NCBI RefSeq assembly: GCF_933775445.1
Contig: NC_065874.1
Location: 6,467,001 to 6,531,000, forward strand
Length of the DNA stretch: 64,000 nucleotides
Origin: Argentina anserina
Taxonomy: Eukaryota; Streptophyta; Magnoliopsida; Rosales; Rosaceae
Direction of reading: 5' to 3'
Part shown: positions 8,213 through 31,800 of the stretch, piece after piece
Layout: the number at the start of each line of letters is the position of its first letter
Position numbering within the stretch: the first letter of the stretch is position 1
Translations under genes and position numbers: made by a program
The notes under the pieces: model-generated
What the model was told of the DNA's origin: nothing
The model's input: the letters and a program-made list of their open reading frames with translations, nothing else
Databases searched by the model: none

Positions 8213-8804
8213 AACTATACATTAAATAAACACAGCTGGCATTGGTTGATCGAGGTCAAGTCTTTGACTCTGTAAGGATGATGTCTGTAGCAGTGAATGA
8301 ACATTTCGGGTTCGGTTTCAAATACGAAGAGTTTCTGTGAAAAGGTTCATCGTAGATCAAGTTTTTCTGCCTCTTCGCATTGGTGCATTATTGCCATAAT
8401 CGTCTCTCGTTCGATACATGCATGGCCTGGTATGTACGAATTAAGTACTAAATTTCAAATTAACCTGACCAAAGTAGTATTCTTCCATATACAATATTAA
8501 TGTTTGTTTTAGTTTGTGTTCTTGTATTCTAGAGAATCTGAGAGATGTGATTGAGCTCAATTAGTGGTATATATACATACAACTATACATTTATGATAGC
8601 TAGCTAGATGCATGCGTTGGCTGAGAAACCCCTCGTTCTTTTATACTGATCGGAGAGAAAGATAGGAGTTTCTCACTCTCTCACAGCGAGCAACTACCAA
8701 TCTTCGTCATCTTCTTTAATCTCTGTTTTTCTTGTTTGCCTTGTGATCGATGACAAATTTGCTTTCTTTCTCAGCATTAATGTATCAACTGGTAGTGATC
8801 ACAA
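8213..8804 (+). promoter_or_regulatory. Promoter/leader repeat, copy 2 (gene B)
   Basis: This is the second copy of the repeat at 1-632. It includes a TATATATA stretch at about 8568-8575 and a CT-rich leader near 8670-8720. TTTCTTTCTCAG at about 8763-8774 looks like a 3' splice site, so a leader intron is possible. An upstream ATG at 8750, in a frame different from the channel frame, overlaps the presumed gene B start. The channel frame itself extends upstream without an ATG, beginning at a GTG at 8743. Confidence 0.6.
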
Positions 8805-8844
8805 CCAAGTGCGTCAAAGAAAATCATCATCAAGTTCAACAAGT

Positions 8845-11800
8845 ATGGTTGATGAGGAAAGTCTTAAACCAAAGTCGGAAACGGAGCCGCCCATCCTTCG
8901 ATGGTGGAATAAGATTGTTGTGGTTTCTTGTGTGACTGCAGTTTTAACCGATCCCTTGTTCTTTTACATTCCTCTCATCAATGACCAAAGAAAATGCCTT
9001 GCAATGGACAAGAATCTAAGGATCGTTGCTCTCCTTCTCCGATCAGTTACAGATATCATTTTCATAATCGATATTACTAACCAAGTTCGTGAAAGGACTA
9101 AGATTATGGCCTTCAAGGGCTCAAAAGATCCATCGCCATCAAACTCTTACTCCTCATCTCCAGGAAATGAAAAGAAAGTTGCATTAGAAGTGACCCGGAG
9201 GTTGAAGCGATTATCTGTGTCTATTGTAATTCACTTGCTCGCCATTCTTCCCTTCCCGCAGGTAAAAGTAGATCACCATCTTAGGTGTAGTTTTCTCATT
9301 TCTATCATATATGGTTGTTATTCTTATAATCTTGTATTACTTGTTACCCAGGTGTCAGTATTACTTGTCTTTTTTAGAATGAGAGACAATGGGTATATGT
9401 CAAGAAGAAGTGTTTTGAATGCCTTTCTTCTCTTCCAATATGTGCCAAACATGTGCCGACTCCGGCTATCTTACAAGAAACTTCAGGTGACCCAAAGATT
9501 GGTCAAAGGTGCATTCAACTTTCTCTCGTACATCATTGCAAGTCATGTAAGTTATCTCCATGTTCGTAATAGTATTTTCTCCATGTAAGAAAATAATTGC
9601 TTTTATCCTTCTTTTTATATTAAGTGACTATATAATATATTGAGCTTGAGATGTTAACGTTACTTGATCACATTGAAACGAGTTCTTGGCTTGTGAGCTA
9701 GGCCTGCTTAGATCTCATCTATATTCTTCAAGGATTGGAGATTTGGAGAGCGCAGCAGTAGTTTTTAAGCTACTTTTGGAAGTTTTAATTTGTTAACATT
9801 AAGATATAATTTGTGTAGGAAGTGCTTCAATTCTCACTATAACAACCAATTAGCACTACAAAACAATGTGAAGCAAATGACAAATAACAGGTTTTAACAT
9901 ATATATTTAGCCAATAGAGGAGTGATCGATTACATGTCACATTTTAATTTAAATGTGTTTTTTTTTTGAGAAAATAAATTAAATGTGGGTTTTCTCCTTT
10001 ATAAAGCAGAAAAGCTACATTTAATTTAGAATATGACATGGAGCCACATTCAATAATGTTGGCGAGATTGTGAGGTCGGATCTAAGTGTTTTAATTTTGG
10101 AATGACTTGGGCTGTGAGCCAGTGACGGATCTAGGATTGCATCATTAAAGATACTTGAACTTAACCATACAAAGATAGTGGAGAATCTTGACGGCGCGAA
10201 TGAATTTTACTAATTAAAATTAAAACCAATCTTCCTAGTTAGTGAATGTAATGAGGCTTCCTCTTCTTATGCATATATACAAATAACATAAACTAACTAA
10301 TTAAATATTTAAATAACACATTATAATCCAGAATCATTTATAAGAGTATTTTATTATCGGTTCGAAAGGTTAAAAAATGATCAATGGAAACTGAATTAAA
10401 GATCGTAGTTGGTCAATAAAGCTTAAAAAAAAATAAGAAATGAATATAATTCAGATTTGAACTTATAGGTTAGACATTTCATTAAAACCATTAAGCAAAT
10501 TTTTTTTGAACGCTTTGGTTTGGACTTAAAATTGTCATTTTTAGTCTAATAGACGCATTTAACCATTAAAAAAACTCATATATATAAGACAAAACGGCGT
10601 ATGTAGTCAAAATCTAACACAAATACATTTATTCAATTGTAAGCAACATACTAGCTAGTAATTAACCTAACTAGTATTTTAGAAGAAAATATACTTGAGT
10701 GAGAACATGCTATTGAGGAATAAGAGTCAAGTTTGGAAGGGAAACAAATTAGTAGAGTCGATTATTTAGGGATGCTTGGCTAAGAAGAATCCAAAAAATA
10801 AAATATTAAAAACTCTGTTTTTTTTTCTTGTCTTGAGTTTGAAGGTGTTTGAGTCACCCTAAAACTAGGCTAGACCCGCCCCTGGTTCGGCAACCACCTT
10901 TCGACAACATGGATTATACAATCGGGTTAAGCCATTAAGGAGTGGGGGTGGCGCAACGCACTCTGAAGCATGTTGGGCTGGACAAAAGTAGTGACCGTTG
11001 TCTTGCTGATGTTGATTCATTTCGACGATCAAGGTTGACCATATTAGTCTTCAAACTCATTGGGCAACGAGAAGTCATTGGGCTCAAAATGACATGGGTT
11101 ATGGAATGAGCTTTTGATGAAGGAGGTTTGCCCTACAAGGGCAAAGGGATCACTTAGACAGTTAGACCTCTTTGTCCTTACCTGAAAACTGCTGATTGAA
11201 TTCTCATGTTGTATTATGAATATTACTTTGATGTACACAATTTGAGGTCTCTAGGTGACTGATAATACCATCTATAACAGTTTAATGAGATGCTTGGTAT
11301 GTAACTGGTAGTTTGTAGGCTGTATATGTGCTTACTATACTTGTCATTGGATTATGGTGGAGTATTGAAACTTGACATTTGAGTAAGTCTCGCGAGACTC
11401 GTACAACGTGTAAAAGTGTCTTGAATCTAGGTCATCATGAGGCCTGGCTGTCGGATGCCAGCGGGCTTAAACGTAGAAAATGTTGGGCTAAACATTCCCC
11501 CGATCCAAATACCAGTTGTCCATAAAAACACAAGCTCATGATCCACGAGCCCATTTTAGCTTTCCCCTCACCTTTCTATTCTCTTACTCGTCCTCTGTCT
11601 CCCCACCCGCTTCACCTTCTCCATCTCTTTCTCTGCCTCCGGCGACGACATGTCGTGTTTCCCCTCTCCCGTCAACAAATACTTCGGCATCCTCGTCGGG
11701 GTACTCCAAGGAGGTTATGCATGTGGGGGAAGCACCGAGCTTCATCATATTGAAAATTGGAGCTTTAAAACATCTGGGTTTGAAGCTGGGGTGGCTTTAT

Positions 11801-14800
11801 ACCCACATTCTAACCCGGGTTATCGGTGAGCCTCTCTCGATCGATATATATATATATCGATATCTCTGTCACTGTTGTGCTCAGCTTTAATTGCAGATGG
11901 ATTTGCTGAATTTCATTGCATATGTCACCAATATTTGTGCCGTTATTTTAGGTGGTCGGAGCTTTTTGGTATTTTTTCTCTATTCAACGAGAGACATCAT
12001 GTTGGTACCAAGCCTGTCGAACCATTGAGGGATGTATGCCCGCTCAGTGCGGCGATAGAACTTCAGCAGAGGTTGTGCTCCTCAATACATCATGTCCGAT
12101 AGATCCATCCAATTCGACAATGTTCGACTTTGGAATGTATCTTGATACTCTTCAGTCCGGTTATACAAGACAGACAAGTTTTCCCAAAAAGTTCTTCTAT
12201 TCTTTTTGGTGGGGTTTAAAGAATCTGAGGTTTGTAACAATATGTGTGGTTTCTTCTAACAAGTAAACAATATGTGTGTCTCTGTGTAATATATAGTAGT
12301 TTCTTTTTTTCGCTAATAGCTATAGAACATTTCATAGATCGAGTTCTTTGGCTTATTTATTCTCAGCATCACACTTTCATTGTGCTCATGTACATGCTTA
12401 TTGCCACACCAGTTCTGCATTTTATTTTTAATTTTAAACTATTATAGATAAGGCAAGAAGATTTACAGATTTTTATTGCTTTCTTAGGTGCATTTACCCA
12501 TAAATCACTCCTTCTGCAGATTATCTTTTGATGCATGAAAAGTATACAGCTTCATTGCGATTCTAATGGATAAAATTAGAAAACCATGTGCACGCAAACA
12601 CTGTGTGTATGCAGTGTTGGCGGTCTTACCAATTTACTATATTTGTTTTTTTGGTCCTGTACGCGGATATTGGCCGAAACTTAACATTGTTTTTTAAGTG
12701 CATGCGAATAGTTATCCCATGGTTCGGTTATCAGTGTACCAACCACATATAATTGTTTTACTCTTTATTAAATTTCCAACGTAGGACTGCTTATTCTTTG
12801 ACATTACCTGAAGCACATTCTTTGACATTACCTGAAGCATGGCATGTAAGTAGGAGTTGTTTGCCAAGATGTATGTGTTAGTTTACATGATTACTCAAGC
12901 ACAGTGTTGATGCATCTCTATATGGTTAATTTGTTCTGCTAACTAGTATCTCAAATATTAATGGCTTGATCCATTTTTGCAGCAATTTTGGGACCAATCT
13001 AGAAACAAGTAGCTACGTGTGGGAAAACTGCTTTGCCATTCTTATTTCTATTACTGGCTTGCTACTCTTTTTATATCTCATTGGAAATGTACAGGTATGT
13101 AGACCAGTGGTGATCAGAAATAACTCTTATTATATATATATATATATATCATTTTTATCAAATAAATTAATAAATCTCATTTGATCAAAGTTTATATGTA
13201 TCAAATTTTGGTTTGGAGTTTAAAAAAAGGGTTATTGTTTGCTAGGTCCAGTAAGTCCACTTGTTTTGGAGATTGGTTGTTTTGGTTCTTCCGCTTGTTT
13301 GTTGGACTAGTGTTTTAGCCCTTTTATTTTCAACTTAGGGCTCCTCAAGCTCCTATTGGAGACTTTCCCTCTTGATCAGGCCGATATGGGTGATTTTTTC
13401 TTCAAGAATAAAAAATAAAAGGAATAATCAACAGACAGGTTTTTCTTCACCACATCCATCAATTACAGATTATATCATGTGAATTAAACCTCATAGTATT
13501 CTCTGGATTGAAATCTAAAGATAAATTTGTATCAATATTGAAGAATAGGTATTATAACTAGTTCTGATCTGCATTTTTTTTTACACAGGCATACATGCAG
13601 TTCTCAAAATCCAAGGAGATGGACGAGGAGGAGTTAAGCAATAAGATGAAGGAGAAAGAGACTGAAATACTCCAGTACTTGATGCCAAGAAAAGGTCTTC
13701 CGCTGGAAATGAGAACAGAAATCATGAGAAACATAAAGCATGACAAATTAAAAAATAAATTGGATTCTGAAGTAGATATGGACCTTTTATTCTATCTTCT
13801 CCCATGGAACATTGAAGTCTCTATAAAGCATCATGTTGGCATGGACGCCCTAAAAAAAGTATATTTTTAAACCAGTAGTTTCTCTAACGTTACTCTTATA
13901 TTTTAGCAAAAGACACTTAAAGTATATTATGGATATAGAAAAAAAATGAAAGAAACGAGAAAACTAAAAGTGAGAAAGCATGAGAACACGACAGACTCCT
14001 ACATAGTCATTTTGGTTGCATCATTGTAGCTAATATATCAATATAATGGTTCCAACAACTAATGCTATAGGTTCTTCCTAATATCACCTAATGAACAGTA
14101 TGACCATTAAGGATACATTAAATTCACTATTCTGGCTTAATAATTTCATTAGGAGAGTATATAAGGACATCTTGGTAATGTTCTATATGTTGGAAGTGTA
14201 TACAGTCCATATAAACAGAACTTAACTTGGTACCAATGTAGTCTATTGTTTTTCATGATCTTCTCTTTTCGTTCATCTTATTATTCCTTCGTATGGTGTT
14301 ATAATTCAGCTTTAAAATATGATTATATAGGAATATGAATGGTGCATTCTTACAAACTTTATAACCAACTAATGTTAATCTAGGTACCATTGCTTCAGCA
14401 CATGGATGAAAAGGTGCTGCAAAAGATCTGCGAGCATCTCAAGCCAGTCAGCTATTCTCCTGATCACGTTTTTAAAACAGGAAAAGAGATTGATGCAATG
14501 CTATTTGTCACAGAAGGCTCTGTTTGGCCTATCCACAATGGTGGTGAGGAGAGCTCAATGGTCACTGGGAATGAAGACAAACTTGACTACTTTGGAGAAG
14601 AACTTCTGAAGTGGGTATCACCAAGTATCTCTTTTCCTGATCTTCAATCTCCTAAACGTACTCAAAAGCTCAAATGTCAAACAAAAATAGAAGCCTTCGT
14701 TCTGATTGCCAAGGACTTGAAAAGTGTAGCTCGTGACTTCAGACGTCTGTGGAATTGGAATTTTTACAAATCTGACATTGATCCTGATCATTTTGAGAAG

Positions 14801-17800
14801 TCGGCAGGTTCCCTGAACAAGATTAACGAGGTATGTTAAATGCAAAAGTAGAATTGAGGTTCAATTCCAGCCTTCGCAATTATTAAGTTTACATTTCAAT
14901 TTTCAGCTTACTTGCTTGTCATATCTTGCTTTTTCTTAATCAATGAACTCAGTCTTTTATTTAAGATACGTGGTCATTACAAGTTTACAACATTAAGAGT
15001 TACATGACCTCACCACTCATCATTTCTTTCAAGTCTCAAAACATGGTTGCCCTGCTTCTATAATACCAATGTATCATAGCTCCTTCTATTTTTTGGATTA
15101 AGTCACAAACACACACACACAATGGCCAATGAAATGTCTTATTTTTGGTTTCAATATTAAAAGCTTTGATTGGTATGGTCCTTTTTCTCATATCGACTTT
15201 TCTTTTTTCTGTTTTATTTTCTAAACCACGAATTTATCTCTTTACCAAAAAAAAACCTATATCTATCTTAGTCTAAATGAGTTATTATGAGGTTTGGTAA
15301 TCCAATTTCGCGCGTTCCAGTGAATAGGATTAGACTCACATTACACTTCATAAATATACTCTGATGCTTCTTTGTTGTACAATTCTTTTTGACATACTGC
15401 TCTTATTATATTTATTTTGTGATACCAGACATATATTCACTTGTGGGAGGAGAAATTGGCCTCTGTCCAAAAGGAGAAGATGAATAAAGAAATATCTGAG
15501 TGGGTGTCAAGAACTGGTCTCAGCGAAGATGTGGAAAAAAAAATCAGTAAACACATAGAAGAGAACAAAATTGTGAAAAAAAATATAGATGCTGCCGTGG
15601 ATCTGCCTTTTCTGTTCTCTGTTCTTACCCAGAATATCACAAATGCCATTGGGATGGATGCACTGAGAAAAGTATGTATGTCAACTTATGGAGCATTTCT
15701 TATAGCTTCCAAGTTTTTTTAACTTCTCTGATTTAGGAGAAAATGAATTTTTTATTGCTCTAATTGTTTTCTTGAACTTGTTTAGAGTTTATGGATAGTG
15801 AAGAGAGGGAAAAAAAACCATCAATATGGTGAAAGAAAAAAAAACCCTTCCTAATATTTGTAGTGAATCTGTCAACAAGTTAGTCAAAGAAACATAACAA
15901 GCACAGCAAACCAAGAGAAACAACCACAAAGAAAAGAACACAAGAACACAGATTTAAGGTGGTTCAGCAAATAGCTTTGCCTACATCCACCGGACATAAA
16001 CACACTTCTACTATATTAATAATGGGTACACAAGAAAGACTAAGAAAACAAGAACTCTCTTCTCTTCCTATCTTTCTCCTCTCTGCCCTCTCTCACGCTC
16101 TAACCGAGAATGGAACACACTTTGCTCTTTGTCTCTGTGATGCCTAAACCTAGAGCATAATATAGCCATAAGGACAAACATGTTTCCTCACTAAATAGGA
16201 ATCCTATTCCTAATAGTGGTAGGTTGTAAAGCCTCCTCCTACAAGTAAACCATCATCAATAAGGATTCCATATCCTTACCGGAACACCATACTCTAAGAA
16301 ACCATCTTAAAAAAAACACATGGGCTGGAAACCCAACACTAATGATATCACCCTAAAACATAATCTAATGCCTTGTTACAGTTTGGTCCAGTGGCAGTCT
16401 GTTCATTAAGTGTATAGGAGATTGTGAGTTCGACTCACGAAAGACTAGTGTAGCATCTGAGTTTTGCTTATGCAATGAAAAACGAACTAATATGTACAAT
16501 TTTTAACCTTTGAGGTGTAGAATAAAAAAAACCAGTCATTGAAGACAATTTTTTATACATTTAATTTGGAAAACCCCACCCTGCCCACCTTAATGTATGA
16601 CCTCCAAAATGGAAGGTCGCTGTCTTAGGCCTTGTTTGGTGCTGGTTGTGTTGCTGTGCTGTAACAAAAATATATTATGAATTAAAATATTTATTACTTT
16701 TATTTTTTTGAAAAGAAACAGTTGTTTGTTAAAACAAAAGGTAAGAAGTCCGCTTTTAAAATTCACATATGATAAAGCTTTATCAGCCCAACAGATAGTG
16801 CTAACCCAAAGAGGCTACTAGGGCTTAAACTAAAACTGCTTGCCAATTAAGAATGATAGAAGAAAGAGTATAATCTCTAAAATCCTTAGTTGTAGAAGCC
16901 CAAAGTGATGCATAGAACTTAAACTCTCTCCCACAGGCCACAGATCTTCCTTCTCCACCCCACCATAGGATGCAAACAACCTTTTATTTCTTTCCATGCA
17001 AACCACCCACACTACACCCCACAACCCAAAGAGTTCCGGCCTTTATCCCTTTACCAAAAGCTGAAGGTTTTTCTTTTAGCTAGTCCCCCCTCTCTAGTGA
17101 AGTTATCCAGTCCACTCTTGCCTCCCTAAACAACTTCTTCCATGAAAAATTAATTAACCACCCCACAATGCATGAAGACATGTTCCACACTTTCTCCTTG
17201 CACTTGCACAAAATACACCAGTGAGGAGAAAAGCAACATTCTGGTGTTCTCCTCTGAAGAAATTGCAGGTATTTGTCCTCCCAAGTGCCACGAGCCATCC
17301 CAAACTCTTCACCTTAGTAGGTTGATATTCCAAATAAACTTTGCAGGAGCAAAGATTGGATCTAAGCCATCACTAATTAGAAAGCTATGAAAAGATTTGC
17401 AAGAGAAACTTCCATCTCCTCTCATCCGGTTTAACTCCACTAATCTGACACTGTCAAGTTTAAGCATCAGCGAGGCAAACACTGCAACCTCTTGATCATT
17501 TAAGTTTCTTCAAAATCTGAAATCCCAACTCACTGGAAAATTGAGCTGAATAGCTACTGTTTCGACTGAAGAATTAGTGTGTCTTAATAATCTGAACAAC
17601 CCATCTTCTTGTGTTTTTAATGAAATCAACTTCTAAAAGAAACCTTAAAGCTAATGCTAGTGAATTTTATTAAATAAATAAACACCTTTATGAAAGTTCA
17701 AGTAAAAGCTGATTAAAAAAAGCGAAGTATTACTAAACGGGGTCTTATTTTGGCAGCAAACCTGTACATGATTTAATTATTTTGTAACAATGTGTGATGA

Positions 17801-18991
17801 CAACACTCCTTTACTTAAAAAAAAATTGTGTGTTTGTCTTTGTTTTATATTTAATTCATATAATTAATATCATGCATGTATCAATAAATAGGTACCCATG
17901 CTTCAAAAGATGCCCGAACCAATGTTGGAATCAATCTGCAGATATCTCGAGCCAGTGACTTACATTGAGAATGCACATATTATTAAAGCAGGAACGGAGC
18001 TTGATTTCATGCTCTTTGTCATAGAGGGCATAATGATATGGACCAACACAACAAGTGATTCTTTAACAACAGGTTATATGATGCCTAAGTTATGTATTGA
18101 GAAGGGTGATGTCTATGGAGAAAAACTAATGAGTTGGGCATCATCAAACATGAATGTTTCTGATCTTCCAATCTCCACCCAAGATTTTAAATGTCAGAAA
18201 AAGATTGAAGCATTTTCTCTCAAGGCCTCACATGTGCAAAATGTAGTCTCCAAACTCGGATCTCAGTGGAGTGAATATTACATTGCGCCTCCTGATTATG
18301 AAAACAAGACGTACCTACAGAAATTAAAAGAGGTTTGATGGATATATCTAGCGTCTTTATATAGCTGCTTTCTCTCTCCTAGAAATCTGTCCTCTTTATG
18401 TTGACAAAACATCAATTTTATTATGCTATTCTTGATCACCCTGCGATTCATACTTCACATGTTGCCTCATAAGATGGAATAGAGACCAGTACTGCGCGCA
18501 CACACACATACACAATTACTATGATGCATGCTTATATACCTCGTGGATAATAAGAAAGTGAATTTTGTTCTTCTGCTGTGAAACAGGTACAGAGGCAATT
18601 GACAACTACACCATTGGAGAAGATTGAGGATGATGATTTTAGACAGAAGATGAAGATCCTGGTCAAAGAGTATGATATACCTGACTGGCTGTCAAGACAT
18701 GCTCTCCCTGATGATGTGGTAACAGATATTATGAAATACATTAAAGAGAACAAAGTAGCAGAGACAGACATAGATTTCCACATGGATGTGAAATATCTAC
18801 TCTCTATTGATCTTCCTTGGCGTATCGAGAAGACTATAAGGGACCACCTCTCGATGACCGCGCTTATGAAAGTATGTTTCTCAACCGTATAAAATCATAG
18901 GTCTAATTATTGGAAAAGAAGACAATTAATCACATTTCAGAATTAGTATTTGTGGTGATTTCATAGTCTCGCCATTTAACCTAAGCCATTC

Positions 18992-19033
<42 letters not shown>

Positions 19034-22000
19034 GGTACCGATGCTTCAACAAATGCCAATCTCCATATTAGAATCTATTTGCAGTAATCTGGAGCCAGTG
19101 GTATACACTAATAATGACTGTATTTTTGAGAAAGGAAAATCACTGGATTTGATGCTCATTGTTATAGAAGGTGAAATTGCGCTGACTGAGACGAAGACTA
19201 GTGATGCTGGAATAACTGATTCCTTATCAGTGAACACCGAAACTCTTGGGGAAGGTGATATTTTTGGAAAAGAACTTCTGAATTGGGCATCACCCAGAAT
19301 ATTATTAGCTGGTTCTGCTCCGGTCTCCCCCCAGTATGCTCAGTGTCAAAAAAGAGTAGAAGCCTTCACTTTGACGATAAGTAAGTTGAGAAGTGTAGTG
19401 TCAGAACATGACACTGACTGGATGTCATACAATTGTGACGATACGGAGCATTTGAAGGAGTTGGAAGTTCTCCAAGACAAGATTGATCATCTTGATGATC
19501 AGGTACAGAAGGTATGATTCTTTAAGATAAATTTTGAAATATATATACATATATATGACAAAATTAAATTCTTCTATTACACAGAGACACGTGTTAGTTT
19601 TAATTACTTCATCTTTAACCACTCAAATCATATTGTTTATATCTGAGGCAGGTTCCTGCTTATCAGAATATATAGTCTTTCTTACTGAAGTGTTACTGTG
19701 TGTTATATTATTTAACTAATTATGAATAAAAGGGTTTCTGCGATTACATTTGGTTTGAGTCTGAGCCATTCTTAGATATGAGATGTCAACTACGACGTGT
19801 GGAGCGCCGATACAGATTTGTAACAGGATATGTGCAATATCATAATACTTATAGATTGTAGTATATATGTGAAGTCACCTCATTCCTCACTTCAATCTGA
19901 CGTTGAGATATATGCAGTTAGAGCCCGCAGATCCGGGGGAGATTGAGGATGAAGAGTTACGACAGCAGAAGAAAATCAAGAACAGGGAGAATGCCATAAT
20001 TCAATGGATGTCAAAATATGACCTCGATGAGGATTTGAAGAAAAAAGTCAAGTTGCACATAAGGATAAATAACTCAGTTGGAAATGATATGGATTCAAAT
20101 TCTGATGTGGATGTGAAGTATCTACTCTCCCTATTTAACTGGGGTCTGGCCAAACCTATAACAGAACATTTCTGTATAACCATCCTAAGAACAGTATGCT
20201 CTCTAAACACTTATTTCTTAATTTTTGATTAAAAAGAAGCAAGTTCTATGTTAATAATTAATTAGAAGTGATCAATTTTGCTCTTTTCCAATTAGTGTAA
20301 GACATTTTAAAATATATAAAAATTGCAATATAATGAATATGTAAAAGTATATATCAGTGTATAAAAAGTCATTTATATACAAATATATATATATATATAT
20401 ATAGTCCCTATCCAGAGTGAAGGTTCACTCTGAAATTTCAGAGTGAAGTTCCAATTTTGGCACACTTTTCGGTCAAATTTTTTCACCATAAGTGATTCAA
20501 TATTTAGATATGCTATTCAAGATCATCTCTATAAAGTTTCATCCAATTTGACAATGATTTGAGATTTCAAAATTGAGATTTACACGAACGGTTCACGTTG
20601 AACAGTTTTTATTAATTCATTGATTTAATCTAATTTCAATACATTAACGATGTCCGAATTAGATGAAATTTTGTAGAGATGATCTTGAATAGCATACCTA
20701 AATATTGAATCGCTTATACTGAAAAAATTTGACCGAAAAGTGTGCCAAAATTGGAACTTCACTCTGAAACTTCAGAGTGAACCTTCACTCTGGATAGGGA
20801 CTGTATATATATATATATTTGGATAATTGCAATTTAATGAATTTATAAAAGTATATATAAGTGTATGTGACAAGTTAATATATATGTACATGTGAAGGTA
20901 CCCATGCTCAAAACCATGCATGAAGATGTCTTGAAAAAGATATGCTACAATGTGAAGCCAGTGGTCTATGACCAGAATATCTGCATCATTGAAAAAGGAA
21001 AGTCACTGGACTTTATGCTCATCATTGTAGAAGGCGTAATTGAATGGACTGATGTGACCACTAGTGATGCTGGAACTACAGCTTCAACAGTAGTTATGAA
21101 GGCTAAAGGTGAAATTTTTGGAGAACAACTATTACATTGGGCATCCCCGAATGTTTTGTTTTCTGGCTTTGCTCCTACTGCAACCGGAGATGTCAAATGC
21201 CAATCTAAAGTGGAAGCCTTTAGTCTATCCACTAAAGACTTGAGAAGTGTAGTATTTGAATATGAGGGCGAGTGGAATTCAGCCAAGACCTACGGCGATC
21301 GGCAGCAGGTAGAAGCGATGCAGCTTCTTCATAATAAAATTGACCAGGTACCGAATGAGATTTTTCATAAAACTGATGAGCAAGCGTCAAGAGATTTTGG
21401 TTATTTCTTTTCCTCATCATGATTATGGATGGTCCATTTTCAGTACTGGTGAAGATATTAAGACCATCTTTTCTATCATGCATTAATCTTTTCGCTTTTC
21501 ATGATTATTTGGTTTTACATATTTTGTTTTGTCTTTTGTTGATTGGTTATTTCATTTGGCCTTTTTCTTGTTTAAGAGGTTTTGGAGTATGCATGTAGAA
21601 TCATTTTCAATCATTCAAACCCTCATGATGAAAACAGATCTTGCATGTGAACCACCCGATATAGTTTTCTATAAGTAGATGGCAAGTAAGAAAATAAAAA
21701 TGAGGAAACAAAGCAGGAAAATTATGCAACTAAAGAGTTTATATCTGTAGAGTTTTTTACATGGGATCGGAGTAGAGGCAAGATTGCAGTTCTATGCTAT
21801 TTTTAATAGAACAGTCTTCATTCACATTATGACAATTAGAGTATTAAACAACTAATAAGAAATTGTTGGGTTTTCCAGCCCATGTGTTTTTCCTAAGATA
21901 GTTTCTTAGAGTATGGTGTTCCAGTAAGGATAGAGAATCCTTATTGATAATGGTTTATTTGTAGAAGGAGGAGGCTTTATAACCTACCACTATTAGGAAT

Positions 22001-25000
22001 AGGATTCCTATTTGGTGAGGAAACATGTTTGTCCTTATGGCTATATAAGGAGGGGTTATGCTCTAGGTTTAGGCATCACAGAGACAAAGAGCATAGTGTG
22101 TTCCATTCTCGGTTAGAGGGTGAGAGAGGGCAGAGAGGAGAAAGATAGGAAGAGAAGAGAGTCCTTGTCTTCTTAGTCTTTCTTGTGTACCCATTATTAT
22201 CATAGTGGAAGTGTGTTTCTGTCCGGTGGATGTAGGCAAAGCTATTTGCTGAACCACCTTAAATCTGTGTTCCTGTGTTCTTTTCTTTGTGGTTGTTTCT
22301 CTTGGTTTGCTGTGCTTGTTCTGTTTCTCTGACTAACTTGTTGACCGATTCACTACAGAAATTAAGGTTATAGAATCTAGACCTATGCACCTAATGTAAT
22401 TTGATTTTCTGTGGATGGATAAATTTCTTCATAATATCATCCCAGCTGCTACTCTTGCTCAATATTACCCAATGGATGTTTACACAATTTAAACTAAACT
22501 TGTAAAATGTTGCTCCATATAATATTGCTAGGCTCCAAGACTTTAAAACTGGATCTCATGCATTTAATTAAATCACCGCCATATTCTAATACCTTGGTTT
22601 TTTATGAATTCAATTTCTTCTTGTTCTTTTCTCGAAAAGACATATATGCAGTTGCAGTTTGGAATGGCAAAACTGGAGGAGATTGATGATGAAGAAGTAA
22701 AGAAAGCGGTGAAGATCAAGAATAAGGAGAATAATATACTTGAGTGGATGTCAAAACATAGCGTCAATGAAGAATTGAAGGACAAAATCATATCACACAT
22801 AAGGATAAATAACTCAGTTGTGGAAAAAATAGATGCTGATGTGGATGTGAAGTATCTACTCTCACTTTTTCCTTGGGGTTTAGGCAAACCTTTAACAGAG
22901 TTTCTCTGTGTGAAAGCGCTACAAAAAGTAAGTTTCTCAAAAACTCATCTCCTGTAGTGAAGTAATATAATTATTCAGATTTTATCCTTTTACACAAATT
23001 TAAACAAAACTCAATTTAAGAGGATATGCTAGTTACAATCCTTGAAGTACATAGATCAGCAGACACATCTATGGTTTCATCAGTTTAATTCTCTTGTAAG
23101 TTGTTTTTTCATTTGATTTTTGTCTGAACTTGACTCATTAAAATTCTAAGTTGATTTCATAGGGGTGTAATCTCATTTGCGCACAAAAATTTGATTCTGA
23201 AGGGGTATAATTCCATTGGCACACAAAAATTTAATTCTGAAGGAGTATAACCTCATTTGTCCACACAAAATGATATGTGGGCAGGTGCCATCTCACCTCT
23301 ATGTTCTAGTTTTTTATAGTCTTCTTTCTAATGTCAGAAAAAAGCAAAATTTTGCTTCTTAGTTGTTTGTAAATGTATACATGTAAAAAGAAATTGTTAT
23401 TATTATTATTGTTACCAACATAAAATTGGTTAGTATAGCGTCATTTGTAGAACTAGTATCATATTAAAGTTAAGTAACCTTTTTCAATTGACCAACTAAT
23501 GCAAGTAATATGCATACATATATATAGGTACCAATGCTTGAAAATGTGCCTGAAGATGTGTTTGCGAGGATTTGTTACCACGTTGAGCCTAGAGTCTTTA
23601 CTGATCACATTGTTCTTAAAGGAAAACCACTGGATTTTATGCTCATCATTGTAGACGGCGAAATTGAATGGACTGGCACGACCAGTGATGCTGGAACAAC
23701 AGGCTCCAAACGTCTTCAAAAAGGCGGTATATTAGGAGAAGAACTCCTCAATTTGGCATCACCCAACATCTTATTTTCCGGCCCCCCTTCTATCTCGGCG
23801 GAAGATGTCATATGTAATACAAAAGTTGAAGCCTTTGCTCTCACGACCGTTAACCTGAGATGCATTGTCTCTGAATACTGCATGAAAGGGATTTCGCCTT
23901 TCAATAGTTGTTCTAATATGCAGCTGTTGGAGGAGTTGGAATTCTATCTCGAGAGGGTTGATCAGGTACCTAACAAGCTTCAGCTTAGGATCAAGTTTTT
24001 AAAATTCTGCATTGATTATTTTTATTTATGCATTTTGGTTTGCTACTCAAAACCTGGGTGATTACTGGTTTAGAAATTAGAAATGACTAGCTAAAAATGA
24101 TTTTTGATTATTTATTTCAAGCTTTAATGATTAGATGGATTTTGTCTAGTATGTTGAGGTATCCTGGTAGGATAAATTAAGTGAGTTTCTTGTTCATCTT
24201 ATGTCGAAAAGACATATATGCAGTTGCAGTCGGGAACGACTAAACTGGAAGAAATTCAGGATGAACAATTGAGAAAAGCAGTGAAGATCAAAATGAAGGA
24301 GAACGATATACTTGAGTGGATGTCAAAAAATGGCCTGGACGAGGAATTGAAGATAAAAATCATGTTGAACATGAGGATAAATAACTCAGCCGAGAGAATC
24401 GTAGATGGTGATGTACATGTGAAATCCATAATCTCACTTTTTGGCTGGGATTTGGGAAGACCTTTAACGGAGCATTTCTGTATAAGCACACTACTAAAAG
24501 TACGTCCTCAAACACTCATCTTAATTGTTACAATGCTTACGTCATATAAGAAGATTTTGTATAAAAATTGATGAAGCTAGCAAGTTTTTAAATTTTATGT
24601 ATATAAAAATTGCTCTTTCGCCAGATAAAGTTATACACCTATGTATATAAATATACAGTAAAACCTCTATAAATTAATAGGCTCGGGACTGAGGAAATTT
24701 ATTATTTTAGCGAGATATTAATATATCGATAAATTAATAATCTATTAATTTATCGATTAATCAATAACTTATTAATTTATCAAGGTATAATAAATATTTT
24801 CTTTTACTTTTTCAAAGAAAAAATTTTACTTTTTGTTTATGCATCATATTGTTGGATTTATCACGGATATCGTTGTTCAAAATATTATATTGTCCGATGT
24901 ATTGTATTATTTTATTTGATGATAATTAAATCAACCAAATTCTTCAATAAAATCCTCATAAATGTAAAATTTATTATATAAATTATGTCATTATTAATTT

Positions 25001-25588
25001 ATATATTTGATGGGTCTATATGAATTCTCAAATTTCTATTATTTTACAAATTTAGTGAAATATTAATTTAGCACGTTAGCCTCAAATCAGGACCGGAAAA
25101 AAATATTATTTTAACGATGTTATTAATTAATCGAGTATTAATTTAACGCGGTTCTACTGTAGTTTTCAAAAGTATTTATGACAAGTTAATATATACATGT
25201 GAAGGTACCCATGCTTAAAACCATGCATGAAGATGTCTTGAAAAGGATGTGCTACTATGTGAAGTCAGTGGTCTATGACCAGAATACCTGCATCGTTGAA
25301 AAAGGAAAGTCACTGGACTCTATGCTCATCATTGTAGAAGGCATAATTGAATGGACTGATGTGACCACCAGTGATGGTGGAACTACAGCTTCCACAGTAG
25401 TTACGAAGGGGAAAGGTGAAATTTTTGGAGAGCAACTTTTGGATTGGGCATCCCCTAGTAACTTGTTTTCCGGCCCTGCTCCTACCTCAATCGGAGATGT
25501 CAAATGCCAATCTAATGTAGAAGCTTTTTGTCTATCGACCAAAGACTTGAGAAGTGTAGTCTCGGACTGTGATGGCAAGTGGATATAA
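8845..25588 (+). CDS. Gene B: CNGC-like protein with six tandem C-linker/CNBD modules
   Basis: I assembled 16 exons: 8845-9261, 9352-9546, 11952-12229, 12983-13094, 13589-13858, 14384-14830, 15429-15671, 17892-18332, 18587-18871, 19035-19502, 19918-20193, 20898-21347, 22640-22927, 23528-23965, 24212-24499 and 25205-25588. The product is about 1,760 aa, against roughly 700 for ordinary plant CNGCs. Exons 1-4 give the membrane core: DPLFFYIP, KCLAMDK, LAILPFPQ, QYVPNMCRLR at S4, SHVVGAFWYFFSI at S5, and NFGTNLETSS to LIGNVQ at pore/S6. Exons 5-16 are six C-linker + CNBD pairs, each open with canonical splice sites and phase 0 at both ends. The product is probably a membrane protein with a very long cytosolic tail. 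No IQ motif is seen. ATG 8845 is the first in-frame ATG. Alternatives are mutually exclusive splicing of modules or several shorter transcripts, but no promoter or start is evident between modules. Confidence 0.75.
9547..11951. other. Large intron 2 of gene B
   Basis: The equivalent intron in gene A is 165 bp; this one is 2.4 kb. It contains a terminal-inverted-repeat element candidate (10120-10884) and a CT/CCT-rich stretch near 11560-11700 with an open frame of low-complexity Ser/Pro composition. I do not regard that frame as a gene. A good acceptor, ATTTTAG, precedes exon 3. Confidence 0.6.
10120..10884. mobile_element. Candidate hAT-like element in intron 2
   Basis: It starts CAGTGACGGATCTAG and ends CTAGACCCGCCCCTG; the ends are imperfect inverted repeats. 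The termini resemble those of the element at 44965-46676. I could not find a convincing target duplication, so the exact boundaries are uncertain. No transposase frame is visible. Confidence 0.45.
12795..12838. repeat. Tandem pair of a short repeat
   Basis: TTCTTTGACATTACCTGAAG occurs twice back to back within intron 3 of gene B. It is a minor local duplication with no evident function. Confidence 0.8.
13589..14830 (+). CDS. Gene B module 1: C-linker exon 5 and CNBD exon 6
   Basis: The linker exon (13589-13858) starts AYMQ, matching the segment that follows S6 in CNGCs, and ends MDALKK. The CNBD exon (14384-14830) starts VPLLQHMDEKVL and carries FGEELLKW followed by SPKRTQ and IEAF. This is the module closest to canonical CNGCs. 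It alone keeps the arginine at the phosphate-binding-cassette position (KRT, family STRT). It is therefore the best candidate for real cyclic nucleotide binding. Both exon borders are phase 0. Confidence 0.8.
15429..18332 (+). CDS. Gene B module 2: exons 7 and 8
   Basis: The linker exon (15429-15671) starts TYIHLWEEKL and is the shortest of the six (81 codons). The CNBD exon (17892-18332) starts VPMLQKMPEPML and carries VYGEKLMSW and KKIEAF. The cassette position reads STQD, so the phosphate-binding arginine is replaced by Gln. The intron between the pair is 2.2 kb because a solo LTR and a LINE fragment inserted there, yet both exons remain open with good splice sites. Confidence 0.75.
15859..16338 (-). 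mobile_element. Solo LTR in intron 7 of gene B
   Basis: On the - strand it begins TGTTGGGTTTCCAGCCC and ends TACA, the TG...CA layout of an LTR. It matches, in reverse orientation, the element at 21864-22357, including the GCCTAAACCTAGAGCAT region that holds a TATA-type promoter in the other copy. No internal retrotransposon sequence is attached. CTAAT occurs on both sides but three bases off the left end, so the target duplication is not clean. Confidence 0.8.
16680..17500 (-). pseudogene. LINE (L1-type) reverse transcriptase 3' fragment
   Basis: Two - strand frames (about 17298-17080 and 17024-16830) resemble the zf-RVT and C-terminal part of plant LINE polyproteins: CILCKCKEKVWN, a WKKLFREARVDW stretch, then WVVCMERNKR. 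The frames are shifted relative to each other and interrupted. No full ORF2 is present, so this is a dead 5'-truncated insertion inside intron 7 of gene B. The family is recognised from its pattern, without a search. Confidence 0.6.
18587..19502 (+). CDS. Gene B module 3: exons 9 and 10
   Basis: The linker exon (18587-18871) starts VQRQLTTTPLEKIEDD and ends TALMK. The CNBD exon (19035-19502) starts VPMLQQMPISIL and carries IFGKELLNW and KRVEAF. The cassette region reads SPQY, with no arginine. The intron between them is only 163 bp and is largely an AC/AT microsatellite. The donor may be at 19503 or 9 bases later at 19512; both keep the frame. Confidence 0.75.
18992..19034. repeat. AC/AT microsatellite in intron 9
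   Basis: A run of CA dinucleotides passes into TA dinucleotides and ends at the TATAG acceptor of exon 10. It is likely to vary in length between alleles and is close enough to the splice site to affect it. Confidence 0.9.
19918..21347 (+). CDS. Gene B module 4: exons 11 and 12
   Basis: The linker exon (19918-20193) begins LEPADPGEIEDEE. Its start is uncertain, because the acceptor TATATGCAG gives phase 0 whereas sibling modules splice 12 bases earlier. The CNBD exon (20898-21347) starts VPMLKTMHEDVL and carries IFGEQLLHW and SKVEAF, with ATGD at the cassette arginine position. Its CNBD is very similar to that of module 6. A 400-bp foldback MITE lies in the intron between the two exons. Confidence 0.75.
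20403..20802. mobile_element. 400-bp foldback MITE in intron 11 of gene B
   Basis: The ends AGTCCCTATCCAGAGTGAAG and CTTCACTCTGGATAGGGACT are exact reverse complements, and similarity continues through nearly the whole element. It lies within a TA-repeat tract, so a TA target duplication is possible but cannot be shown. It has no coding capacity. Confidence 0.9.
21864..22357 (+). mobile_element. Solo LTR in intron 12 of gene B
   Basis: It starts TGTTGGGTTTTCCAGCCC and ends CACTACA. It is flanked by a perfect 5-bp duplication, GAAAT, at 21859-21863 and 22358-22362. A TATA-like CTATATAAGG lies inside at about 22042. It is the same family as the - strand copy at 15859-16338. A solo LTR forms by recombination between the two LTRs of a full element. 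Confidence 0.9.
22640..23965 (+). CDS. Gene B module 5: exons 13 and 14
   Basis: The linker exon (22640-22927) starts TYMQLQ after the acceptor CTCGAAAAG. The CNBD exon (23528-23965) starts VPMLENVPEDVF and carries LGEELLNL and TKVEAF, with SAED at the cassette arginine position (Glu, a charge reversal). Two residues are missing before the KGKPLD turn relative to sibling modules. It ends LERVDQ before a GTACC donor shared with module 4. Confidence 0.75.
23155..23275. repeat. Three tandem ~52-bp repeats in intron 13
   Basis: The motif GGGGT(G/A)TAAT..CATT followed by CACAAAAATTT and ATTCTGA is repeated three times with small changes. It is non-coding. Confidence 0.8.
24212..25588 (+). CDS. 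Gene B module 6: exons 15 and 16 (C-terminal)
   Basis: The linker exon (24212-24499) starts TYMQLQ like module 5 but ends TEHFCISTLLK, closer to module 4. The CNBD exon (25205-25588) is close to that of module 4: VPMLKTMHEDVL, IFGEQLLDW, SNVEAF, with SIGD at the cassette arginine position. It stops at TAA right after DGKWI, about 30 residues earlier than siblings. This ends the protein without the C-terminal helix and IQ region of normal CNGCs. Confidence 0.75.
24656..25160. mobile_element. MITE in intron 15 of gene B
   Basis: The left end ACAGTAAAACCTCTATAAAT and the right end TTTAACGCGGTTCTACTGT are imperfect inverted repeats. The AT-rich interior repeats ATTAATTTATCGAT-like blocks. The target duplication is not resolved in the AT-rich flanks. 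It lies just upstream of the last CNBD exon. Confidence 0.65.
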
Positions 25589-26900: not shown

Positions 26901-27179
26901 TGCCAAAGAAAATAACGAATAAAGACGAAGGCTGCAGACGAAGATGAGTATTCTTTTGATCGGGAGTTGGGACAGCCTTGGCTAATAATGGCTGGTGTCG
27001 TCCGTATGTGGTAAAATGGTCATCCCATTTTGGCCTCGTTTAACCATCCGTAATTCGGGTCAACCAAAAATACTAATATGCAATATGGGTGGAGCCATCA
27101 CCGGGTGTTGATGACCGAGCGACTTTTACATTTACCCAACTACATAATACTCACAACTGAGTGTGTCCGGTTGAATTTA

Positions 27180-28660
27180 AAAAAAAAAACAATTCCGGAA
27201 AGATTCGGTTAAAGGGTTTCCGGTTGACTCCACTTACGGACGGTCAAACAATACCCAAATCGGATGAAATTTTTACCACACGTTTTATTATATATGCCGA
27301 TCACATCAGATAGTGTCAATCTTCCATACGTTGAACTTAAATTTGTGATCAACAATGTCCACTAATGTTGTATAACATTTTAACTAGATTTAAATAAACA
27401 TGTCGCATTATGAAGCAACTATATGGAGGAAATGTCTCGTACCCAATCGACACCACCCAATGACATCGGTACACATAATTACGTGCGTGATAAAAATTTC
27501 ATCCCATTTTAGGCTCGTTTGACCGTCTGTTATTCGGGTTAATAGAAAAAAAATACTAATATGCTCTATGGGTGGAGCCATCACCTGGGCCGATGACTGA
27601 GTAGATTTTACATTCTCCCAACCACATAATACTCGCGACTGAGTATGAGAGGTCGAATTTGAAAACAAACAATTCCGGAAGGATCCAGTCAAAGCATTTC
27701 CATTTGGTAAATCGACATATTTTTCGGTTGACTCCAATTACTGACAGTCAAACAATCGTCAATTTACCACATGTTTTACTATATATGATGATCACATCGG
27801 GTGGTGTTGATTTTTCCATCATTGAAATTAAGTTCGTGATCAACAAAGTATTCACTAAGTTTGTATAACATTTTAACTATGTTTAAATAAAAAATATGTA
27901 GTATTATGAAACAACTATATGGAGGAATTGTCTTGTATCCAATCGACACCACTCGATGTTATCGGTACATATTATTATGCGCATGGTAAAAATTTCATCT
28001 CATTTCGGGCTCGTTTGACCGTCCGTTATTCGGGTCAACCAAAAAAATACTAATATGCTCTATGGGTGGAGCCATCACCGGGGGCGATGACCGAGCGGGT
28101 TTTACATTTCCCCAATCACATAATACTCGCGACTGAGTGTAAGCAGTCGAATTTAAAAAAATATATTCCAGGAAGTATCCGGTCAAAGCGTTTCCATTTG
28201 GTAAATCGGCCTATTTTTCGGTTGACTCCACCTACTGTCGGTCAAACAATCGTCAAATCGGATGAAATTTTTACCATGTGTTTTACTATATATGACAATC
28301 ACATCGGATGATGTCGATTTTTCATACGTTGAATTTAAGTTTGTGATCAACAGAGTGTCCACTAATGTTGTATAACATTTTAACTAGGTTTAAATAAACA
28401 TGTAGCATTATGAAGCAACTATATGGAGGAAATGTCTCGTATCCAATCGACACCACCAGATATCATCGGTACATACAATTACGCGTGTGGTAAATCAACA
28501 TATTTTTTGTTGATTTCACTTACGGACGGTCAAGCAATACCCAAATATGATGAAATTTTTTCCACGTGCATTATTATATGTGCCGATCACATCAAGTGGT
28601 CTCGATTTTCCATATGTTGAACTTAAGCTCGTGATCAATAAAGTGTCCACTAATGTAGTA
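27180..28660. repeat. Diverged array of ~500-bp dyad-symmetric units
   Basis: Marker CAACTATATGGAGGA recurs at about 27417, 27908 and 28412. The block TTGACTCCA...CGGTCAAACAAT recurs near 27221, 27727 and 28219. Within a unit the left part contains GATGAAATTTTTACCA and a GCCGATCACATC block, and the right part carries their reverse complement (GGTAAAAATTTCATC), so each unit is a large imperfect palindrome. Short open frames here are side effects of the repeat. Confidence 0.8.
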
Positions 28661-28889
28661 TGTTTAAATTAGTTAGGATATTGGATGATGACTAATGAGT
28701 TTGGGCTTTAGGCTTGGGATTGAGTTTGGATTTGGGTATTGTTATTACTTTTTATTTTTTTACATTTATTGGATTTGGTGATTAGAGTTTAGTGTATATG
28801 GTATAGGGTTTGGAGTTTCAAGGTTAGGGTTGTGCAATTGTTTTTTGAATTATTATTTTTTCTAATTTTAAAGTTAGAATTTTATATCT

Positions 28890-31800
28890 TATTTTTTTTC
28901 GTATAACGTGCGGCGTCACCTTGCGGAACACCTAAAGCGGAGGCCACGGTCAAATGCAGTCAAATATGGGTATTAACATGATATTATCGTTGACCGAGGC
29001 ATCGGGCGGTCCAACAACATTCAAATCCTACAAATTTTCACTGGGGATCCTTAAAATATATATTTAATGTATCGGATGGTGTCGATCGACCGTATTAGGC
29101 CGTCGGGATTACGAGAGCCAAGGTGTGACCTAATGTTTACTAACCTAAATAGCTTGCTTAGTAGGAATGGGGGATCTTAAAAGTACTTTTCAATTACGAA
29201 AAGGAGGTCAATTATCGGGGCCAGTCGATGTCTTCCTCCCTATTACGTAGGCAAGGTGTAAACATTTGGTCCCAATCAGGACTCGTTCGGCTGTCAGAGT
29301 ATTCGGTCAACGCTAGACTACCCTAAACCCCCCTAAAGGGGGCGACATGCTCAGAGGGGGGGGGGGGGGGGGGGGGCGGAGGGGCGTGCCCAGCACATTT
29401 AGAACGGCCTATTTTTTCCAGTATAACGTGCGCCGTCGCCTTGCGGAACCACTTAAGCGAAGGTCATGGTCAAAAATGGTCAAATTTGGATATTAACATG
29501 ATATTATCGTTGACTGATGCATCAGACGGTCCAACGACATCTAAATCCTACGACATTTAACCGGATATCCTTAATAGATATACTGAACATATCGGCTGGT
29601 GCCGATCGACCGTATCCGGCCATCGTGATCACGAGTCCTAAGGTGTGACCTAATTTTTACTAACCTAAATAGCTTGCTTAATAAGAAATTGGGGGATCTT
29701 GAAATAATTTTTAATTACGGAAGAGAGGTCAACAATCGGGCCCAGTGAATGCCTCTCTTCCTATTACGTGGGAGACGTGTAAAAATTTGGTCTCAATCGG
29801 GACTCGTCCGTCGGACTATTCGGTCAACGCTAAACTACCCTAAACACCCATAAAGGGGGGGGGGGGGGGGGGCGACGTACTCAGAAGGGGGGCGGAGGGG
29901 CGTGCCCAGCCCATTTAGATTGACCTATTTTTTTCAGTACAACGTGCGGCGTCGCCTTGGGGAACCCCTTAGGTGGAGGCCGCAGTCAAATACGGTCAAA
30001 TATGGATATTAACATGATATTACCGTTGACTGATGCATCGGACGGTCCAATGACATCTAAATCCTACGAAAAGTCACCGGATATCCTGAATAGATATAAT
30101 GAACATATCGGCTGGTGCCGATCGACCGTATTCGGCCGTCTAGATCACGAGTCCCAAGGTGTGACATAATATTTACTAACCTAAATAGCTTGCTTAATAA
30201 GAAATTTGGGGATCTTGAAATAATTTTTAATTACGGAAGAGAGGTCAACGATCGGGCCCAATGAATGCCTCACTTCCTATTACGTGGGTGATGTGTAAAA
30301 ATTTGGTCCCAATCGGGACTCGTCCGTCGGACTATTTGGTCAACGCTAAACTACCCTAAACCGGGAGAGGGGGGGGGGGGCGACGTGCTTAGACGGGGGC
30401 GGAGGGGCGTGCTTAGCACATTTAGAATGACCTATTTTTTCTAGTACAACGTGCGGCGTCGCCTCGCGGAACCCCTTAGGTGGAGGCTGCAGTCAAATAT
30501 GGATATTAACATGATATTACCGTTGACTAATGCATCGGACGGTCCAACGACATCTAAATCCTACGAAATTTCACCGGATATCCAGAATAGATATAGTGAA
30601 CGTATCGACCGTATCCGACTGTCAGGATCATGAGTCCCAAGGTGTGACCTAATATTTACTAACCAAAATAGCTTGCTTAATAAGAAATTGGGGGATCTTG
30701 TAATAATTTTCAATTACAGAAGAGAGTTCAACGATCGGGCCCAGTCGATGCCTCCCTTCCCATTAGTGGGCGACGTGTAAAAATTTGGTCCTAATCGGGA
30801 CTCGTTCGGCCGTCGGATTATTCGGTCAATGTTAAACTACCCTAAACCGCCCTAAAGGGGGCGACGTGCTCAGAGTAGGGCGGAGGGGCGTGCCCGAAAC
30901 ATTTAGAATGACCTATTGTTTCCAGTACAACGTGCGGCATCGGCTCGCAGAACCCCTTAAGCGGTGGCCGCGGTAAATATGGTCAAATATGGATATTAAC
31001 ATGATATTACCGTTGACTGATTCATTGGACGGTCTAACGACATCCAAATCTTACGAAATTTCACCGGATTTCCTGAATAGATATACTAAACTTATCGGCT
31101 GGGGCCGATCGACCGTATCTGGCCGTCAGGATCACGAATGCCAATGTGTGACCATTAATTTACTAACCTAAATAGCTTGCTTAATAAGAAATTGGGGGAT
31201 CTACTAATAATTTTTAATTATGGAAGAGAGGTCAACGATTGGGCCCAGTCGATGCCTCCCTTTCTATTACATGGACAACGTGTAAAAATTTGGTCCTAAT
31301 CAAGACTCGTTCGACTGTCGGACTATTCGGTTAACACTAAACTACCCTAAACCCCACCTAAGGGGGGTGACGTGCTCAGAATAGGGCAGAGGGGCGTGCC
31401 CGGCACAGTTAGAACGACCTATTTTTTCCAGTACAACATGCGGCATCGCCTCACGAAACCCCTTAAGCGGAGGCCGCGGTCAAATACGGTCAAATATGGA
31501 TATTAATATGATATTACCGTTGACTGATGCATCAGACGGTGCAACGACATCCAAATTCTACGAAATTTCACCGAATATCCTGAATAGATATACTTAACGT
31601 ATCGGCTGGTGCCGATCGACCGTATCCGGCCGTCGGGATCACGAGTCCCAAGGTGTGACATAATATTTACTAACCTAAATAGCTTGCTTAATAATAAATT
31701 TGGGGATCTTGGAATAATTTTTAATTATGGAAGAGAGGTCAACGATCCGGCCCAGTCGATGCCTCCCTTCCTATTACGTGGGTGACGTGTAAATATTTTG

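Follow-up and report, generated by a model that had tools for sequence, protein, structure and literature searches.

The window analysed here, a 64,000-nucleotide stretch (C3:6467001-6531000) of the 237-Mb genome of silverweed, Argentina anserina (Rosaceae, Rosoideae), contains a gene of the cyclic nucleotide-gated channel (CNGC) family in which a single channel core is followed by six tandem modules, each consisting of one C-linker exon and one cyclic nucleotide-binding domain (CNBD) exon. Positions given below without a sequence name count from the start of the window, and the gene lies on the + strand. An earlier note on this DNA had placed the gene at 13589-25588 and had described six linker and six CNBD exons on one strand, all open and with GT-AG borders, behind one core. 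Coordinates, frames and borders turned out as claimed, and the gene itself starts upstream of that interval.

Exon structure of the six-module gene

The core is complete, CNGC1-like and six-transmembrane, and comprises four main exons (8422/8775-13094). Exon E1 (8775-9261, with an alternative start ATG at 8845) encodes the N-terminus and segments S1-S3, E2 (9352-9546) encodes S4 and the start of S5, and E3 (11952-12229) encodes S5, the turret and the pore helix, all three as indicated by profile matches and the deposited protein. Exon E4 (12983-13094), carrying the selectivity filter (SNFGTNLETS) and S6, is additionally backed by a PDB sequence match. An 8-nt probable first coding exon (ATGGCCTG, 8422-8429, donor GT) would join the acceptor before 8775 as in the deposited model LOC126787936; it was placed via the N-terminus of the corresponding protein (P0001, MAC-INVST), with one pattern match across 6501-8775.

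In the tail (13589-25588), C-linker and CNBD exons alternate strictly. Profile matches, open frames and the deposited protein agree on L1 (13589-13858) and C1 (14384-14830), L2 (15429-15671) and C2 (17892-18332), the linker of module 3 (L3, 18587-18871), that of module 4 (L4, 19918-20193), and L5 (22640-22927) and C5 (23528-23965) of module 5. The CNBD exon of module 3 (C3, 19035-19502) has its donor at 19511 in the deposited model instead, while that of module 4 (C4, 20898-21347), a recent duplicate of C6, is supported by profile, deposited protein and copy comparison. In case of module 6, the deposited model overruns the donor of L6 (24212-24499) and stops in the intron; the terminal CNBD exon with the stop codon (C6, 25205-25588) is matched by the profile and absent from that model. 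All 12 tail exons have an AG acceptor and 11 a GT donor, C6 ending at the stop codon. Since every one of the 12 starts in phase 0 and has a length that is a multiple of 3, an exon pair could be copied without breaking the frame. Together they hold 1,425 open codons; with stop codons as frequent as in the neighbouring introns (0.066 per codon), the chance of this is about 10^-42. A profile hidden Markov model (HMM) scan matched six linkers and six CNBDs in order behind one core at 8845-13094; the profiles were built partly from modules of the window, and Pfam, the PDB match and the deposited protein constitute the independent evidence. The spliced product comprises 1,759 residues from the ATG at 8845, or 1,788 if start and C3 donor are those of the deposited model.

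The deposited protein of LOC126787936 (P0001, Argentina anserina, 1,684 residues, named 'uncharacterized protein') contains exact translations of 15 of the 16 exons, with the C3 donor at 19511. It is identical to the spliced model over 1,052 residues, differs by three residues at the C3 donor and is then identical over 581 more, through linker 6. Exon C6 is supported by its open frame, by 80% identity to C4 and by an end close to the ends of the last CNBDs of Rosa and Prunus relatives, which like C6 lack the inter-module tail.

Relation to plant CNGCs

The core and module 1 aligned to residues 88-607 of Arabidopsis CNGC1 (AtCNGC1, PDB 9j34) with an E value of 5.4e-115. In stand-alone Pfam searches, PF00027 was matched in modules 3-6 and above cut-off only in module 6. 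Because Pfam gave no usable match for the core and modules 1-2, the homology claim rests on the PDB sequence search and the profiles. By homology, the gene derives from the CNGC family, with CNGC1 nearest among solved channels, and is not an ordinary member. It is set apart because it carries more than one module, no recognisable IQ motif and no pocket arginine. Its selectivity filter reads GTN; GTN and GTS were found in two Prunus relatives, and the GQN type is that of CNGC group I.

According to PMC12284214, in part, the intrinsic-ligand arginine R553 of MtCNGC15b is conserved among aligned plant CNGCs except AtCNGC2/4, and MtCNGC15b, which has this arginine, binds cGMP and cAMP negligibly. 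The equivalent residues in modules 1-6 of the silverweed gene are Q, Q, Q, G, E and G, thus arginine in none of six. Among relatives, the arginine is present in 65 of 98 single-CNBD domains, in 6 of 82 first domains of multi-CNBD proteins and in 16 of 175 later ones. The glutamate of the GEELL motif is retained in five of the six modules. With arginine missing from this key pocket position in every module, 'CNBD' should here not be taken to mean nucleotide-binding. The calmodulin-binding IQ motif behind the CNBD is retained by the majority of CNGCs (PMC7830781, in part); strict and loose patterns, which test for the motif and not for calmodulin binding, gave no match in the silverweed tail. 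Among 22 of the 82 single-CNBD relatives, the strict pattern was found in 16 and the loose one in 18.

The prediction that the tail modules adopt a CNBD fold is based on an AlphaFold2 model of a Prunus yedoensis relative. A fold search with this model matched PKA regulatory subunits, PKG and Epac2. Plasmodium PKG in the top Foldseek rows (TM 0.14, root-mean-square deviation 24) was dismissed as a sign of kinship, these matches reflecting several CNB domains with flexible spacing.

Repeated tails in relatives

A first search for relatives, limited to long proteins, returned five, Argentina itself among them. The exon array that the earlier note had proposed to look for in related genomes was found as a repeated tail in three of the others: Rosa chinensis LOC112203220 (P0002; 1,621 residues, seven modules, 51% identity), a Prunus dulcis protein (P0003; 1,490 residues, five modules, 46% identity) and Prunus mume LOC103325420 (1,298 residues, four modules, 46% identity), the last with a full core joined to the array. 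Rosa rugosa LOC133717616 showed 26% identity. Two further searches, one of them represented by the best 120 of 357 proteins, enlarged the set to 183; it was picked by likeness to multi-module queries, and its counts are not frequencies in plants. At least two CNBD matches were obtained by profile HMM in 83 of the 183 (two matches in 34 proteins, three in 22, four in 20, five in 2, six in 1, seven in 1 and eight in 3). The eight-match proteins are P0002, where one CNBD is split into two matches, and P0013 and P0110, which have two core segments each.

The 49 proteins with at least three CNBDs divide into 30 with one pore and a near-complete core, 11 with one pore and a partial core, six without a pore and two with more than one. 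All 30 near-complete-core proteins are from Rosaceae by name (Argentina, Fragaria, Rosa, Rubus, Prunus, Malus and Pyrus), several being isoforms or alleles of one gene. Outside the family, one core with two CNBDs was found in Rhamnella (P0035) and Citrus (P0045).

Other kinds of tail were also observed in the set. P0023, P0030, P0048 and related Prunus proteins combine one core and one C-linker with four to seven CNBDs. P0005 (Rosa rugosa), P0122 (Rosa sericea) and P0123 (Rosa chinensis) carry 5-18 C-linker-like helical units followed by three CNBDs, a kind of tail shared, with three and three, by the Argentina locus L037. A C-terminal protein kinase follows a CNGC1-like core and CNBDs in P0038, P0054 and P0072 (Malus, Pyrus), P0145 (Rosa), and P0143 and P0153 (Prunus); in one such channel-kinase fusion the kinase is WAK-like by deposited name. 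Across the set, the kinase profile matched 37 of the 183 proteins. P0148 is an open frame of 909 residues on contigs no longer than 3,239 bases, and may thus come from an assembled transcript.

Duplication history and constraint

A tree of modules was built from 52 rows; module 2 of Rosa chinensis, whose HMM match is split, was left out, and the labels Rchin_m2-m6 therein denote true modules 3-7. Modules 1 of Argentina, Rosa, P. dulcis and P. mume form one clade (support 99/94), as do modules 2 of Argentina, P. mume, P. dulcis and P. yedoensis (100/100) and modules 3 of Argentina and Rosa (100/99). Further groups form within lineages, namely Rosa modules 5-7 (100/100), Argentina modules 4 and 6 (99/95) and Prunus modules from the third onward (100/99). 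It follows that modules 1 and 2 are older than the split between Rosoideae and the Prunus lineage, and that later modules arose within lineages. Long branches of two-module proteins meet in the tree, and no inference is drawn from their place. In Rhamnella (100/100), in the apple protein P0022 (100/99) and, weakly, in Citrus (95/63), the two CNBDs of the protein group together, and so do modules 2-4 of P0129, an apple protein with four modules (91/90). On sequence grounds, the Rhamnella, Citrus and apple groupings point to independent formation of arrays.

Between the window's own copies, the ratio of nonsynonymous to synonymous divergence (dN/dS) ranged from 0.17 to 0.69 and was below 1 in all 30 pairs, many dS values being near saturation. 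For the youngest pairs, Fisher tests gave p = 0.0097 (C4/C6) and p = 0.0015 (L5/L6). Pairwise, CNBDs differ in 20-66% and linkers in 39-74% of residues. Same-strand DNA matches between copies, searched over 13-25.7 kb, fall on exons in 19 of 20 cases and reach at most about 40 bases into the flanks; the twentieth flanks a palindromic insertion. Exon phases, the deposited prediction, relatives with four to seven modules and the module tree thus bear out the proposal of the earlier note that the array originated by exon-pair duplication.

The DNA of C4 and C6 (20859-21276 and 25170-25583) is 88% alike, the likeness ending about 39 bases into the upstream intron. With a dS of 0.24 for this pair, the introns would be expected to align still; candidate explanations are copying limited to the exon, conversion, or replacement of the intron.

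Genomic setting

Ten of 20 selected genome regions (L034-L043) were examined, so that the count of multi-module genes is a lower bound. A gene with one core and two C-linker/CNBD pairs lies just upstream of the window on the same strand (L034, C3:6458860-6465590), a second of this layout at C3:4945133-4951108 (L035, deposited as P0015, 971 residues), and one with a core, three C-linkers and three CNBDs at C7:18197221-18201555 (L037, deposited as P0125). Within the window, the profile scan identified a CNGC-like gene with one core and a single C-linker/CNBD at 2553-5897 on the + strand. The locus thereby appears as a tandem cluster of at least three same-strand CNGC-like genes (L034, the gene at 2553-5897 and the six-module gene). 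Single-module genes were further found at L036 (with a broken CNBD), L038, L039 (with a second core cut by the locus end), L041 and in the C7 cluster L042/L043; at L040 only one CNBD was matched. The kinase profile gave no match in the window, in six of the seven other CNGC loci (L034-L039 and L041) or in L042/L043, and its match at L041 lies on the strand opposite to the CNGC gene.

Two introns of the six-module gene contain inverted transposon-like copies (15852-16334 and 21869-22364, 90-98% complementary), and the L4-C4 intron holds a palindromic element (20387-20818) with 162-nt arms (94%), around which lies a 42-nt direct repeat (90%). A short way downstream of the gene, diverged units of about 480-520 bases follow one another in tandem (27009-30000).

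Discussion

We favour, with a probability of roughly 0.7, the explanation that this is one gene encoding a diverged CNGC1-type cation-channel subunit with six duplicated C-linker/CNBD modules, whose tail probably does not sense cyclic nucleotides. The sequence itself establishes the layout and the reading frames of the gene, its homology, its conservation in relatives and its constraint. Recombination in introns would have copied the phase-0 C-linker and CNBD exons repeatedly, as one unit, up to a row of six modules. Four subunits would surround one pore, with module 1 as the usual gating ring under S6 and modules 2-6 hanging below as extra C-linker/CNBD tiers or arms. Since the pocket arginine is absent everywhere and no IQ motif is recognisable, the added modules probably do not sense cyclic nucleotides, and they more likely form a structural tail for binding proteins, by which the gating ring is held, coupled or tethered.

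Several observations weigh against this explanation. The deposited model ends after L6, reading past its donor into the intron without C6, and the acceptors of C4 and C6 look weak by eye. The deposited Rosa chinensis LOC112203220 begins inside linker 1 and comprises only the tail; its core exons may have been overlooked, or Rosa may possess a protein made of the tail alone. A core is also missing from Prunus yedoensis P0006 and P0008, and that of P. dulcis P0003 is gapped. Pfam recognises neither the core nor the CNBDs of modules 1-2. The AlphaFold2 model of the P. yedoensis relative has a predicted TM score of 0.44 and does not fix the mutual arrangement of the modules, and a model of exon C4 from only the six window CNBDs was unusable (mean predicted local distance difference test score 53.8). 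MtCNGC15b R553L and R553W retained currents, so that loss of the pocket arginine need not abolish function (PMC12284214, in part). The explanation is built on sequence and gene predictions. The single protein of about 1,760 residues proposed in the earlier note is backed by the frames and by a deposited model joining core to array, whereas its C6 end lies beyond that model and the Rosa chinensis model comprises the tail only.

These coreless models from Rosa (seven modules) and Prunus yedoensis would suit an arrangement of two genes, in which a short channel of core and module 1 or 2 is accompanied by a separate soluble CNBD-string protein regulating in trans. We consider this unlikely, as the Argentina and Prunus mume models each join a full core to the array, phase 0 is kept at all module junctions, and 30 of the 49 proteins with at least three CNBDs combine one pore with a near-complete core. 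It is quite improbable that the gene is a decaying CNGC1-like pseudogene with a duplicated, relaxed tail. Such decay would account for a core and most CNBDs too diverged for Pfam cut-offs, for the lost pocket arginine and IQ motif, for the missing inter-module tail of C6 and for the transposon-like remnants in introns, but it is difficult to reconcile with the long open frame, dN/dS below 1 throughout, similarity almost confined to exons and positional orthology across subfamilies.

Least probable of all, and by a clear distance, is an assembly or annotation artefact in which collapsed tandem genes were fused by prediction. Fusions are present in the set (with four pores in Arachis P0007, and with two core segments in P0013 and P0110 from Prunus armeniaca), but only one core precedes the six silverweed modules, the copies differ pairwise to the extent given above, and deposited entries from other Rosaceae genera show a layout of this kind. 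A multi-site sensor, in which cAMP or cGMP would bind cooperatively to the repeated CNBDs so that these gate the channel across a wide range, would agree with the predicted fold and the largely retained GEELL glutamate. It seems about as improbable as decay, given that all six modules lack the pocket arginine and that even MtCNGC15b, with the arginine, hardly binds these nucleotides.

Beyond the favoured one-gene explanation, we tentatively envisage that Rosaceae evolved channels in which a modular stack of degenerate C-linker/CNBD tiers, shuffled by lineage, governs the single pore, with up to 24 CNBD folds per tetramer. This stack might be turned over by exon-pair duplication in the manner of immune-receptor repeats and act as a protein-sensing or baiting tail, not a nucleotide sensor, with the kinase fusions as its enzymatic counterpart.

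The case is stronger than first stated, as the layout is conserved and part of a wider expansion of tails. No description of one core with many CNBDs was found in the open literature searched, including passages of PMC7576140, PMC6749817, PMC11817026, PMC12284214 and PMC7830781. The earlier assertion that no channel with this layout has been described thus holds for that literature, but such proteins are already in databases, unremarked, as predictions without described function. CNGC12, for which 'two CNBDs' are stated (PMC6749817, in part), was considered as a precedent and rejected; the second would comprise about 15 residues (550-565) and is taken as a label inside a single CNBD region of the ordinary kind.

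In canonical CNBD channels each subunit has one gating module, whereas this Rosaceae family places the module two to seven times under one pore, in an array that is kept across Rosaceae and seems to have arisen more than once. It offers a natural experiment on force transmission by C-linker/CNBD rings, on the stacking of tiers and on the role of a CNBD without nucleotide. Our results further suggest that CNGC surveys in fruit crops may miss or truncate a large, fast-evolving subgroup.

Other Rosaceae predictions (e.g. LOC112203220, LOC103325420, LOC110761094 and LOC126614449) belong to the same family and likewise show several CNBD matches per chain, but the number and type of modules vary (C-linker/CNBD pairs, CNBD-only, C-linker-only and C-terminal kinases). 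Arabidopsis CNGC1 shares the order of six-transmembrane core, pore, C-linker and CNBD but has only one C-linker/CNBD in 716 residues, compared with six modules in about 1,760-1,790 residues here, and the silverweed gene differs from it by a GTN instead of a GQN filter, by the lack of an IQ-like motif and by the lost pocket arginine. PKA regulatory subunits, PKG and Epac2 share the feature of two or more CNBD folds per chain; these proteins have no membrane channel core and no C-linkers and do bind cyclic nucleotides, whereas in the silverweed gene a six-transmembrane core precedes the array. Tandem CNBD channels and CNGK (Sci Rep 2020, PMC7576140, in part) are alike in the internal duplication of CNBD-channel genes, but there the whole six-transmembrane-CNBD unit is repeated, while the silverweed gene repeats only the cytoplasmic C-linker/CNBD under a single pore.
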